64,000 nt of DNA, from the NCBI RefSeq assembly GCF_003008515.1, contig NZ_CP027668.1:3203001-3267000 (forward strand). Direction: 5' to 3'. Position 1 is the stretch's first letter. The number at the start of each line of letters is the position of its first letter. This DNA is from Phreatobacter cathodiphilus (lineage in GTDB: Bacteria > Pseudomonadota > Alphaproteobacteria > Rhizobiales > Phreatobacteraceae). Under the pieces are notes generated by a model. The model did no database searches. It saw nothing but the letters and a program-made list of their open reading frames with translations, and was not told where the DNA came from. A program made the translations under genes and the position numbers. Positions 33,935 through 49,372 of the stretch are shown here, in pieces.

Positions 33935-34081
33935 CCCCCCACCCCTGACCCCTCCCCGCCGCAAGCGGGGGGAGGGGAAAGGAGCAAGCTTCGCGGCTGC
34001 GCCATCGAGGACGCGGCGGTGATCAAGGAGGCGCCATTCCCCTCCCCCCGCTTGCGGCGGGGAGGGGTCAGGGGTGGGGGG
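33935..34081. repeat. Perfect 45-bp inverted repeat between polA and an ABC transporter operon
   Basis: Arms 33935-33979 and 34037-34081 are exact reverse complements over 45 bp, separated by 57 bp. Each arm begins or ends with the CCCCCCACCCCTGACCCCTC motif and contains CCGCAAGCGGGGGGAGGGG. The same repeat family occurs inside the DNA ligase gene at 47722-47978. Lying between convergent genes, the cruciform-capable element could act as a bidirectional transcription stop, though it lacks T-runs. The rest of the 277-bp gap holds no gene. Confidence 0.9.
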
Positions 34082-46314: not shown

Positions 46315-46412
46315 GGCGTTTATGTAGTCCAAGATGGGGCCCGAGGCAAAAGCGCCGAGCGGATGGCCCCATCCCCTTTTCGTGAAGACGGCCGATGCCG
46401 ACTAAGGTCCCG

Positions 46413-47447
46413 ATGCGTCCAGACGACCTTCTCCAGCCGACCCCGCGGGGCCTCTACTGCCCGCCGGCGGACGTCCATATCGACCCTGTCCGGCCCGTGC
46501 CGCGGGCGCTGATCACCCACGGCCATTCCGACCACGCCCGCGCCGGCCACGACCATGTGCTGGCCACCGAGGCCACCCTGAAGATCATGGCGATCCGCTA
46601 CGGCGAGGATTTCGCCGGCACGACCCAGGTCGCCGCCTGGGGCGAGCCCATCGCGATCAACGGCGTGACCTTCGCCTTCCACCCCGCCGGCCACATTCTC
46701 GGCTCGGCCCAGATCGCGGTCAGCCATCGCGGCCTCACCATCGTCGCCTCGGGCGACTACAAGCGCGCCGCCGACCCCACCGCCGAGCGCTTCGAGGTTG
46801 TGCCCTGCGACGTCTTCATCACCGAGGCGACCTTCGGCCTGCCGGTCTTTCGCCATCCCGACACGGCGGCCGAGGTGGACAAGCTGCTCGCCTCCGTCCG
46901 CCTGTTCCCGGACCGTGCCCATCTCGTCGGCGCCTATTCCCTCGGCAAGGCGCAGCGCGTCATGGCGCTGATCCGCGCCGCCGGCTGGGACGCGCCGATC
47001 TATCTCCATGGCGCGGTGGAGAAGCTGACGCGCTTCTACCAGGCCGAGGGCTTCGACCTCGGCGACGTGCGTCTGGCCAAGGAGGCCGACAAGAAGGCGC
47101 TCGGCGGCGCCGTCGTCATCTGCCCGCCCGGCGCCATGAAGGACCTCTGGGCACGGCGTTTCCCCGATCCGGTCACCGCCTTCGCCTCGGGCTGGATGCG
47201 CATCCGCGCCCGCGCCAAGCAGGGCGGGATCGAACTGCCGCTCATCGTCTCCGACCATTCCGACTGGGACGAGTTGCAGCAGACCATCCGCGACACCGGT
47301 GCCGGCGAGATCTGGGTCACCCACGGCCAGGAAGACGCCCTCGTCCACTGGTGCGGCACGCAGGGGCTGAAGGCACGGCCGCTAAGGCTGGTGGGCTATG
47401 GCGACGAGGGCGAGGGTGAAGCCGCTGCCGCCGAGGCGGTCGCATGA
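46413..47447 (+). CDS. Ligase-associated DNA exonuclease (metallo-beta-lactamase fold)
   Basis: A 344-residue metallo-beta-lactamase/beta-CASP-type nuclease of the ligase-associated class. The metal-binding motif is THGHSDHARAGHD near residue 35, followed by HPAGHILGSAQI and SGDYKRAADPT. The later SDHSDW and HGQEDALVHW motifs complete the site. The start MRPDDLLQPTPRGLYCPP at 46413 matches the usual family start; an ATG at 46395 is possible. It overlaps the ligase gene by 4 bases (ATGA), so they are translationally coupled. The pair is part of the bacterial LHR DNA-repair cluster. Confidence 0.93.
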   Translation: MRPDDLLQPTPRGLYCPPADVHIDPVRPVPRALITHGHSDHARAGHDHVLATEATLKIMAIRYGEDFAGTTQVAAWGEPIAINGVTFAFHPAGHILGSAQIAVSHRGLTIVASGDYKRAADPTAERFEVVPCDVFITEATFGLPVFRHPDTAAEVDKLLASVRLFPDRAHLVGAYSLGKAQRVMALIRAAGWDAPIYLHGAVEKLTRFYQAEGFDLGDVRLAKEADKKALGGAVVICPPGAMKDLWARRFPDPVTAFASGWMRIRARAKQGGIELPLIVSDHSDWDELQQTIRDTGAGEIWVTHGQEDALVHWCGTQGLKARPLRLVGYGDEGEGEAAAAEAVA

Positions 47448-49372
47448 ACCGCTTCGCCGCCCTCCTCGACCGCCTCGCCTACGAACCGCGCCGCAACGCC
47501 AAGCTGGCGCTGATCACCGACTATTTCCGGACCACGCCCGATCCCGAGCGCGGCTGGGCCCTCGCCGCCATGACCGGGGCGCTCACGTTCCGCAACGCCA
47601 AGGCGGGGCTCATCCGCGGCCTCATCGCCGAGCGCACGGACCCGGTGCTCTTCGCGCTGTCCTACGACTATGTCGGCGACCTCTCGGAGACGGTGGCGCT
47701 GATGTGGCCGACGCCCGAGGCTCCCCTCCCCCCGCGGAGCGGCGGGGAGGGTGGCCCGAGCGCCAGCGGAGGGCCGGGTGGGGGGAAGTCTGCGCCCGGT
47801 CTCAACGCCCCCCCACCCCTGACCCCTCCCCTCCGCGAGCGGGGGGAGGGGAATGCGCCTTTCGCGGCGAGCGGGGCGACGGCAGCCCATGACGATGCCG
47901 GCGCGACGCCGGAGGATCCCCTCCCCCCGCGGAGCGGAGGGGAGGGTGGCCCGAGCGCCAGCGGAGGGCCCGATGGGGAGCGCCTAGGAGACGTTCCCGC
48001 GCCCTCCCCCATCGGCCACAACCGCCCGCCGCCCCCGGCCCTCTCGGAGGTGGTCGCAGGCCTCGGCACGACGTCGAAGACCGCCCTGCCGAAACTCCTC
48101 GCCGGCTGGCTCGACCATCTCGACGAGACCGGCCGCTGGGCGCTGCTCAAGCTGATCACCGGCTCGCTGCGCATCGGCGTCTCGGCCCGCCTCGCCAAGA
48201 CCGCCGTCGCCGCCCTCGGCCCCCGCGACCCCGACGAGATCGAGCTGGTATGGCCCGGCCTGACGCCGCCCTATGAATCCCTCTTCGCCTGGGTCGAGGG
48301 CCGCGGCGAGCGCCCCGAGAGCGTCGACCCCGCCCCCTTCCGCCCACCCATGCTCGCCCACGGCATCGAGGAGGCCGATTTCGGCAAGCTGGACCCCGCC
48401 GATTTCGCCGCCGAATGGAAATGGGACGGCATCCGCGTCCAGGCCGCCGCCGGCCCCCTCCCCGACGGGCGCCGAGTGGCCAGGCTCTATTCGCGCACCG
48501 GCGAGGACATATCCGGTGCATTTCCCGACCTCGTCGAGACCCTCGCCTTCGACGGCGCCATCGACGGCGAACTGCTGGTGCTGCGCGAGAACCGCGTGCA
48601 GAGCTTCAACGTCCTGCAGCAACGCCTCAACCGCAAACAGGTGACGGTGCCGCTGCTGGCCGAGTTTCCTGCCCATATCCGCGCCTACGACCTGCTCTTC
48701 GCCGGGGGAGAGGATCTGCGCGACCGGCCCTTCGCCGCCCGGCGGGCGATCCTCGAGCAGATGGTGTCGCAGATGGCGAATCCGCGCATCGACATCTCGC
48801 CCCTCGTGCCCTTCGAGACCTGGGAGGGCCTCGCCGCCATCCGCCTCGACCCGTCCTCGGCGGATGCCGGCGAGGACGCCGAGGCCATCGAGGGGCTGAT
48901 GATCAAGCGGCGTGATTCGCCCTACCTGCCCGGCCGGCCCAAGGGCCCGTGGTGGAAGTGGAAGCGCGACCCCATGGTGGTCGACTGCGTGCTGATGTAC
49001 GCCCAGCGGGGCCACGGCAAGCGCTCGAGCTTCTATTCCGATTTCACCTTCGGCGTCTGGCGCGACGGCGCCGAGGGCGACGAACTGGTGCCCGTCGGCA
49101 AGGCCTATTTCGGCTTCACCGACGAGGAGCTCGGCCAGCTCGACCGCTTCGTGCGCAACCACACGACCAACCGCTTCGGCCCCGTGCGCGAGGTGACCCA
49201 TACGGCGCGAGAGGGACTGGTGCTGGAAATCGCCTTCGAGGGGCTGCAGCGCTCCACCCGCCACAAGTCCGGCATCGCCATGCGCTTCCCGCGCATATCG
49301 CGCATCCGCTGGGACAAGCCGCCCGGCGAGGCGGACCGCATCGAGGCCCTGGAGCTGCGGCTGAAGGGCTGA
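47444..49372 (+). CDS. ATP-dependent DNA ligase with in-frame repeat insertion
   Basis: A 642-residue ATP-dependent ligase of the ligase-associated class. The N-terminal helical domain (1-91 and about 200-260) is split by residues 92-199. That insert encodes PLPPRSGGEGGPSASGGP twice, near residues 94-111 and 159-176, plus a region from an inverted repeat copy. The catalytic lysine is K326 in EWKWDGIRVQ. The adenylation domain continues with LYSRTGEDIS, IDGELLVLR, and IEGLMIKRRDSPYLPGRPKGPWWKWK. The C-terminal OB-fold ends near residue 640. The core looks intact, so the inserted segment is probably tolerated. Confidence 0.94.
   Translation: MNRFAALLDRLAYEPRRNAKLALITDYFRTTPDPERGWALAAMTGALTFRNAKAGLIRGLIAERTDPVLFALSYDYVGDLSETVALMWPTPEAPLPPRSGGEGGPSASGGPGGGKSAPGLNAPPPLTPPLRERGEGNAPFAASGATAAHDDAGATPEDPLPPRSGGEGGPSASGGPDGERLGDVPAPSPIGHNRPPPPALSEVVAGLGTTSKTALPKLLAGWLDHLDETGRWALLKLITGSLRIGVSARLAKTAVAALGPRDPDEIELVWPGLTPPYESLFAWVEGRGERPESVDPAPFRPPMLAHGIEEADFGKLDPADFAAEWKWDGIRVQAAAGPLPDGRRVARLYSRTGEDISGAFPDLVETLAFDGAIDGELLVLRENRVQSFNVLQQRLNRKQVTVPLLAEFPAHIRAYDLLFAGGEDLRDRPFAARRAILEQMVSQMANPRIDISPLVPFETWEGLAAIRLDPSSADAGEDAEAIEGLMIKRRDSPYLPGRPKGPWWKWKRDPMVVDCVLMYAQRGHGKRSSFYSDFTFGVWRDGAEGDELVPVGKAYFGFTDEELGQLDRFVRNHTTNRFGPVREVTHTAREGLVLEIAFEGLQRSTRHKSGIAMRFPRISRIRWDKPPGEADRIEALELRLKG
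47722..47783 (+). repeat. GC-rich palindromic repeat, copy A, inside the ligase gene
   Basis: This 62-bp unit begins TCCCCTCCCCCCGCGGAGCG and ends GGTGGGG. It matches copy B at 47917-47978 at 59 of 62 positions. Both are read in the same frame (195 bp apart, 65 codons) and encode PLPPRSGGEGGPSASGGP. Confidence 0.9.
47808..47853 (-). repeat. Inverted relative of the same repeat inside the ligase gene
   Basis: The sequence begins CCCCCCCACCCCTGACCCCT and ends GGGGGGAGGGGAA. It is close to the arm of the perfect inverted repeat at 33935-33979 and lies in opposite orientation to copies A and B. Translated here as APPPLTPPLRERGEGN. Confidence 0.85.
47917..47978 (+). repeat. GC-rich palindromic repeat, copy B, inside the ligase gene
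   Basis: Second direct copy of the 62-bp unit, differing from copy A at three positions. It encodes PLPPRSGGEGGPSASGGP followed by DG in place of GG. The ligase-like sequence resumes about 20 codons later (SEVVAGLGTT). Confidence 0.9.

Follow-up and report, generated by a model that had tools for sequence, protein, structure and literature searches.

A dispersed palindromic repeat apparently captured in frame by the linker of a LigB-type accessory DNA ligase

An ATP-dependent DNA ligase gene in a 64,000-nucleotide stretch of Phreatobacter cathodiphilus DNA (the window) is interrupted, in the part encoding its N-terminal domain, by an in-frame run of palindromic repeats. This raises the question of where such an insert came from and how the enzyme came to carry it. 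A preliminary description of the window proposed that a mobile repeat had entered an "essential-looking" domain in the manner of the Rickettsia palindromic elements. The insert was examined in its own genome, in the genus, and in other genera of the order. The features are listed in Table 1.

Table 1. Positions in the window of the ligase, its insert and related features
Feature	Position	Strand	Support
Ligase-associated exonuclease (TIGR04122), partner directly upstream of the ligase	46395..47447	+	E 1.6e-143
LigB-type ATP-dependent DNA ligase (TIGR04120), 642 aa, insert-bearing	47444..49372	+	NCBIfam E 2.4e-245, residues 3-637
Inferred unit of a probable local 195-bp duplication	47709..47903	+	75-nt direct repeat, spacing 195
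B arm (long variant, 62-64 nt), copy 1, read as PLPPRSGGEGGPSASGGPGGG	47722..47785	+	93.75% to the B arm from other copies in this genome
Residues 102-191, predicted disordered, between helices 80-87 and 200-209	47747..48016	+	pLDDT < 50
A arm (45 nt), inverted	47809..47853	-	95.6%; 43/45 identical to the consensus arm
B arm, copy 2	47917..47978	+	59/62 identical to copy 1
Complete intergenic element from this repeat family; its two 45-nt A arms are perfect inverted copies separated by 57 bp	33935..34081	.	DNA fold z -14.5

The ligase and its insert

The ligase scores 815.5 bits against TIGR04120 (curated cut-off 400), the "cisplatin damage response" ATP-dependent ligase family, and its partner exonuclease adjoins it. 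The adenylation lysine, K326, is intact as first described; it is the lysine of EWKWDG (KxDG) in an open 642-aa frame. The enzyme is a LigB-type accessory repair enzyme. "Essential-looking", if taken to mean an essential enzyme, is not supported, as an NAD-dependent ligase (LigA) was found in the same genome. We infer that the LigB-type ligase is dispensable and that the insert-bearing enzyme retains its activity. The available part of PMC10140301, in which ligases of this layout are called LigB, describes operon ligases; the window's genome differs in that its Lhr-type helicase (3776784-3779279) lies about 0.5 Mb from the ligase.

The repeat copies reported earlier within the ligase were all recovered. 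The two 62-bp copies (47722-47783 and 47917-47978) lie in one frame, 195 nt or 65 codons apart, and re-measurement returned the same 59 identities. The inverted third copy is an A arm, which the covariance model matches with 74.5 bits (G000:C1:3250809-3250853, where G000 is this genome). Together with the first B arm it forms a B-A' pair like the one at G000:C1:3193613-3193746 (87% by BLAST over query positions 70-204). The repeat copies do fall within residues 92-199, which had been called non-ligase-like as a whole, but a native-looking linker (GHNRPPPP) is also included in that span.

The likeness between the B copies extends 13 nt upstream of them, giving a direct repeat of 75 nt at 93%. 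A local 195-bp duplication is suggested because 11 of these 13 bases upstream of the second copy match those upstream of the first, which are ligase-like (TPEA). Judging from this, the second B copy probably arose by local duplication. A clear match between the copies was sought downstream of the two B arms and none was found; the second duplication unit would be truncated or diverged past its B arm. The preliminary description saw neither this likely duplication nor the recurrence at the linker across the order that is described below.

A structural model of the ligase built with 44 sequences (mean pLDDT 83.8, with 91-97 in blocks 71-90 and 201-240) predicts a disordered loop for the insert, flanked by two helices of the N-terminal domain, in agreement with the earlier suggestion that a loop was hit. 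In archaeal ligases, a profile alignment locates the corresponding position between GDLGESVAL and LTIKRV, which gives its place in their sequence only. Folding of the insert mRNA is more stable than that of shuffled sequences (z -3.9). Five of six reading frames are open in the A arm and six of six in the B arm.

A repeat family dispersed in the genome

The A arm (45 nt) and the longer B arm (about 62 nt) were defined from the other copies in this genome. The consensus arm has the form TTCCCC..GGGGGG, and the A arm folds into a 12-bp stem with one bulge, a 4-nt loop and a 14-nt tail 3' of the stem. For single arms, the advantage over shuffled sequences is modest (z -0.5 to -1.8). The perfect inverted repeat elsewhere in the window belongs to the same family, as had been noticed: its two arms (33935-33979 and 34037-34081) are exact reverse complements and are the same 45-nt arm as in the ligase. 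At Rfam gathering thresholds, only a TPP riboswitch is found in the window (RF00059, 57848-57957, + strand, 61.3 bits), which rules out an Rfam family for the repeat.

The unit is not confined to the ligase. In this 4.49-Mb genome, a BLAST search with the insert gave at least 34 matches (40 of 129 candidates scored) and the covariance model of the A arm at least 46 (150 of 4070 scored); the likeness between copies is not a chance one. The 43 model matches listed represent 27 sites. Two matches are present at 16 of these, all 16 being inverted pairs, and among the matches listed 14 of the 16 have 52-71 bp between the arms. At some of the sites with a single match, the arms form a B-A' pair of the kind seen in the ligase. 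In the congeners, the A-arm model found 47, 34 and 32 matches in three genomes, 1-4 in five and 0 in three; these counts are lower bounds with 150 candidates scored per genome, and 9 of the 12 genus genomes have at least one match.

Like REPs and REPINs, the repeat is a short imperfect palindrome, dispersed, found as inverted pairs with a short spacer, and mostly intergenic. From its sequence, the insert appears to be an element of REP type that was captured from a dispersed family, its imperfect palindromic arms forming an inverted pair like that of a REPIN. GTAG or CGTC was sought at the ends of the consensus arm and was absent, so the arm does not fit the GTAG/CGTC superfamily. RAYTs belong to the Y1 transposase family. 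A Y1_Tnp transposase (PF01797) is present in one of the 12 genus genomes and had no match in this genome, so the element does not classify as a RAYT-mobilised REPIN. The proposal that the repeat was mobile thus stands on its dispersal and the empty sites, but not on a transposase of this kind in the genome. As described in the available part of PMC3116915, REPINs mobilised by RAYT transposases have two inverted palindromes with a short spacer and are dispersed between genes. The anatomy is alike here, whereas the window's genome has no PF01797 match and its arm has the 14-nt 3' tail.

Codon-position GC was used to detect a coding signal in one frame on both sides of an element. The ligase copy was positive, compared with 0 of the 18 other elements from this genome (one, L013, testable on one side only) and 0 of 21 model-match loci from the genus, three of them from this genome. 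The test gives false negatives, having missed the ligase insert of Methylobacterium haplocladii (L299) and a helicase insert in G180 (L395); it flagged 0 of 11 M. haplocladii loci, L309 being dropped for length, and gene counts that depend on it are minima. Excerpts of two papers describe Rickettsia palindromic elements as about 105-150 bp long, inserted in frame in conserved genes and tolerated by the protein (PMC10969869, PMC2229807). Compared by description alone, the present insert is likewise in frame and tolerated, and the idea of a similar capture in another family is supported by the dispersed palindromic repeat in the ligase loop. Those elements are reported in many genes, whereas the ligase copy is the only intragenic one among the 19 elements tested in this genome.

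Recurrence of inserts at the same linker

The genus comparison set contains 12 genomes, from the sole genus of its family in the collection. Between the conserved WP and LSEV, 8 of the 12 have 13-22 residues compared with 110 here. The lack of a long insert in these eight at the place of residues 92-199 rules out a conserved ligase domain of equal length. An assembly artefact is also ruled out, since this same insert begins in the nearest relative of this genome (G003), whose contig ends within the repeat. A different insert sequence of 86 residues is found in G007, whose nearest relative, G004, has 22 residues, and the G008 linker is 37 residues long with a B-like remnant. On a ligase tree calculated without the linker columns, the insert-free G010 and G006 fall between this genome and G008, which requires either a second gain or losses after a single gain.

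Many ligases of named relatives and congeners have other repeat-like peptides between WP and the next helix, often directly before a (G)HNNPPP motif. In Bradyrhizobium, the ligase was found in 106 of 107 evenly drawn genomes, as one contiguous match in 49 and split at the linker in 57. Of the 53 split linkers fetched, 52 keep an open frame and one (L289, the G162 ligase) has a broken one. Linkers measured between anchors (n=51) span 36-120 residues. In an even sample of the order, the ligase occurs in 88 of 150 genomes and long inserts are few: the match was split by a long gap in G000, G008, G125 and G138 and split with no gap in G039, and G107 has about 17 extra residues.

The inserts of more than 36 residues from the Bradyrhizobium, named and genus sets number 75 once three duplicate records (L061/L252, L071/L264, L064/L278) are removed from 78. 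They form 12 clusters. Representatives of seven fold at z <= -4 (the big cluster, L032, L062, L066, L067, L070, L135); folding clearly better than shuffles was absent in the representatives of the other five (L033, L091, L099, L111, L113/L123). Dispersal in the own genome was covered for three inserts, and all three are dispersed: the window's; that of M. haplocladii, a CGTC-type palindrome pair with CGTC at the palindrome start (75 matches in its genome); and that of L284 (38, 40, 50 and 21 matches in four Bradyrhizobium genomes). Hairpin cores (C-rich/G-rich) were counted in 80 named loci, a set that over-represents inserts because it was ranked by an insert-holding query and two of its six search patterns were insert-derived; the frequency of split ligases given above is therefore the one from the evenly drawn Bradyrhizobium genomes. 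There were 29 in the ligase linker (25 binned, 4 by inspection) and 0 in the rest of the ligase gene. Elsewhere in these loci there were 4 in 273 kb called coding, 2 of them no more than 150 nt upstream of the ligase, and 8 in 78 kb called intergenic. Comparison of these sequences shows that different repeats have settled time and again in the ligase linker across the order.

Three further linkers have features of their own. In L284, one repeat arm contains a further small palindrome without loss of the open frame. In L275/L076, a conserved pre-linker segment (SYDYVGDLSETVALMWP) is missing beside the repeat, with the ligase frame open. The linker of Hyphomicrobium facile (L135), about 134 residues long, has repeat peptides together with an internal HTSPLDAxGGQ repetition.

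Recurrence at one site could also be produced by a single old insertion if dispersed copies later replaced one repeat family by another through recombination or gene conversion. Linkers composed of halves of two families (L274, L276, L284, L291) would be expected from such swapping, and the local duplication in the window and the placement of 60 of the 75 distinct inserts, including the window's, in one loose cluster also fit it. However, the clusters number twelve, including a CGTC-type dimer unlinked to the others, and insert-free species stand among insert-bearing ones on well-supported branches. Insert presence changes state 13 times on the ligase tree, 12 of these changes being forced by starred branches; after re-scoring of L076 and omission of L110, L117, L082 and L129, there are 12 changes over 87 rows. 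In these counts the state is set by a length cut-off of 36 residues, supports are FastTree local supports, and gains and losses are pooled. We therefore give an old insertion with later swapping little credence.

Another possible explanation is that a captured Pro/Gly/Ser-rich disordered linker has acquired a use, by tuning ligase flexibility, contacts with partners or the structure of the mRNA, and is maintained by selection. Among 81 close pairs of the 51 Bradyrhizobium sequences, which are not independent, dN/dS was 0.72 for the insert compared with 0.086 for its flanks. The flank value, with the open frame and intact KxDG of the window's ligase, rules out a pseudogene. By this measure of substitution, the insert peptide in Bradyrhizobium evolves under weak constraint. 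A useful linker would agree with a dN/dS below 1, which makes some weak constraint on the peptide possible, with the open frame in all but one of the fetched Bradyrhizobium linkers, and with the folding of the insert mRNA. It would also agree with the preference for one phase, the A of GGGAGGG being the middle of GAG in 101 of 151 cases, but this count is inflated by shared descent and the three duplicate records. Against it, 0.72 is near neutral, the sequences differ between lineages, the ligase is not split in the 49 genomes with a contiguous match, and short linkers have been kept in L251 (51 residues), L261 (48) and L272 (36). Selection for a useful linker is thus unlikely.

Other repair genes and the proposed explanation

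Intragenic copies make up at least 10 of the 110 repeat loci examined in Bradyrhizobium; the 110 (30 and 80 fetched) represent 109 separate places, with about 19 further G224 matches and unlisted ones outside the set. Codon-position GC flagged eight: four in the ligase, one in the Lhr-type, ligase-associated DEXH helicase (TIGR04121), one in DnaE2 and two in HrpB. Reading the loci revealed two further helicase copies, one in frame in G180 (L395) and one out of frame in G182 (L379), so the helicase has three copies in total, one of them out of frame. The Lhr-type helicase was found in 97 of 98 Bradyrhizobium genomes, in 21 of which it matches an insert-bearing query in one piece. Of 20 helicase loci fetched, 15 were readable, with at least four different repeat peptides at one site. 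A long helicase insert is found in 0 of the 12 genomes of the window's genus (27-43 residues there).

Individual loci in these genes show some further detail. The in-frame helicase inserts follow FLPTLVELS (L328 1501-1536; L395; L421-L440). DnaE2 has a repeat-like in-frame insert in L339 (1501-1549), and HrpB of two genomes (L367, L411) has an in-frame SPSPLVG-type repeat peptide. The frame is lost within the repeat insert in two genes, the G162 ligase and the G182 helicase.

Intragenic REPs, often in repair genes, are already known as a class. The available sections of a 2013 survey report GTAG/CGTC REPs and REP dimers inside ORFs, many of them DNA synthesis or repair genes, among which are DnaE2 and an Opitutus terrae DNA ligase, as well as different REPs at about the same recB site in two Xanthomonas species and CGTC REPs apparently without a dedicated transposase (PMC3733652). 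The Opitutus ligase may be a relative of the one studied here. The likeness to those sections lies in REPs within the ORFs of repair genes. The window's arm differs in having no GTAG/CGTC ends, and the present case differs in that one ligase linker is filled in several genera, by inserts of 12 clusters, with a second site in the partner helicase. In the open-access literature, we found no report of LigB or Lhr-type helicase linkers as recurrent repeat sites.

The clustering of intragenic copies in repair genes is not explained by tolerance alone. It could reflect insertion or retention that favors repair genes, if the enzymes that make or seal REPs act near the site of their own translation. 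This would account for intragenic copies in the ligase, the partner helicase, DnaE2 and HrpB, for same-site hot spots in each of two partner genes of one repair cassette, and for the large number of REPs that other bacteria carry inside synthesis and repair genes (PMC3733652, sections available). However, the position of all 29 ligase hairpin cores of the 80 named loci in the linker fits a survival filter, only four genes are involved, and the queries came from one repeat superfamily. We consider a bias of this type quite unlikely. A stronger version, in which the linkers of LigB and the Lhr-type helicase are true capture sites, with different REP families drawn to or fixed in genes for DNA-end and hairpin processing and so recording the repair machinery acting on its own expressed genes, seems to us highly improbable.

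The explanation that we favor, and regard as probable, is the capture of a REP-type pair followed by local duplication, with the insert kept by stop-poor arms, a tolerant linker and an accessory enzyme, under a filter that acts repeatedly across genera. It starts from what was observed: the dispersal of the family, the short linker in most congeners, the recurrence at one site, the weakly constrained peptide in Bradyrhizobium and the predicted disorder. In this sequence of events, a transposase acting in trans would move the element, and one B-A' pair would settle in a short flexible linker of the N-terminal domain, beside the codons GAG-GCT. Local duplication would then add the second B arm. 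Nearly all frames of the G+C-rich arms lack stop codons, so that an insert whose length is divisible by three would leave the protein open. The linker would tolerate a long disordered peptide, and the insert would be carried because of the stop-free arms, the tolerant linker and the accessory role of the ligase in repair. The same survival filter would act repeatedly, on the ligase linkers of other genera and on one helicase linker in Bradyrhizobium. Points that weigh against this explanation are the concentration of intragenic copies in repair genes, the missing PF01797 match in this genome, a dN/dS below 1 in the peptide, the five insert clusters that do not clearly outfold shuffled sequences, dispersal covered for three inserts, gains and losses pooled on the tree, and the two genes that have lost their frame.

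These loci provide many natural replicates of a palindromic repeat entering one enzyme loop, with empty-site relatives nearby. The replicates make it possible to test passive tolerance against the evolution of a useful linker and against a bias toward repair genes, a pattern that was noted in 2013 and is left unexplained in the section concerned (PMC3733652). They also serve as a warning that, in these ligases and helicases, a block as long as about 100 residues may come from repeats and not be a domain.
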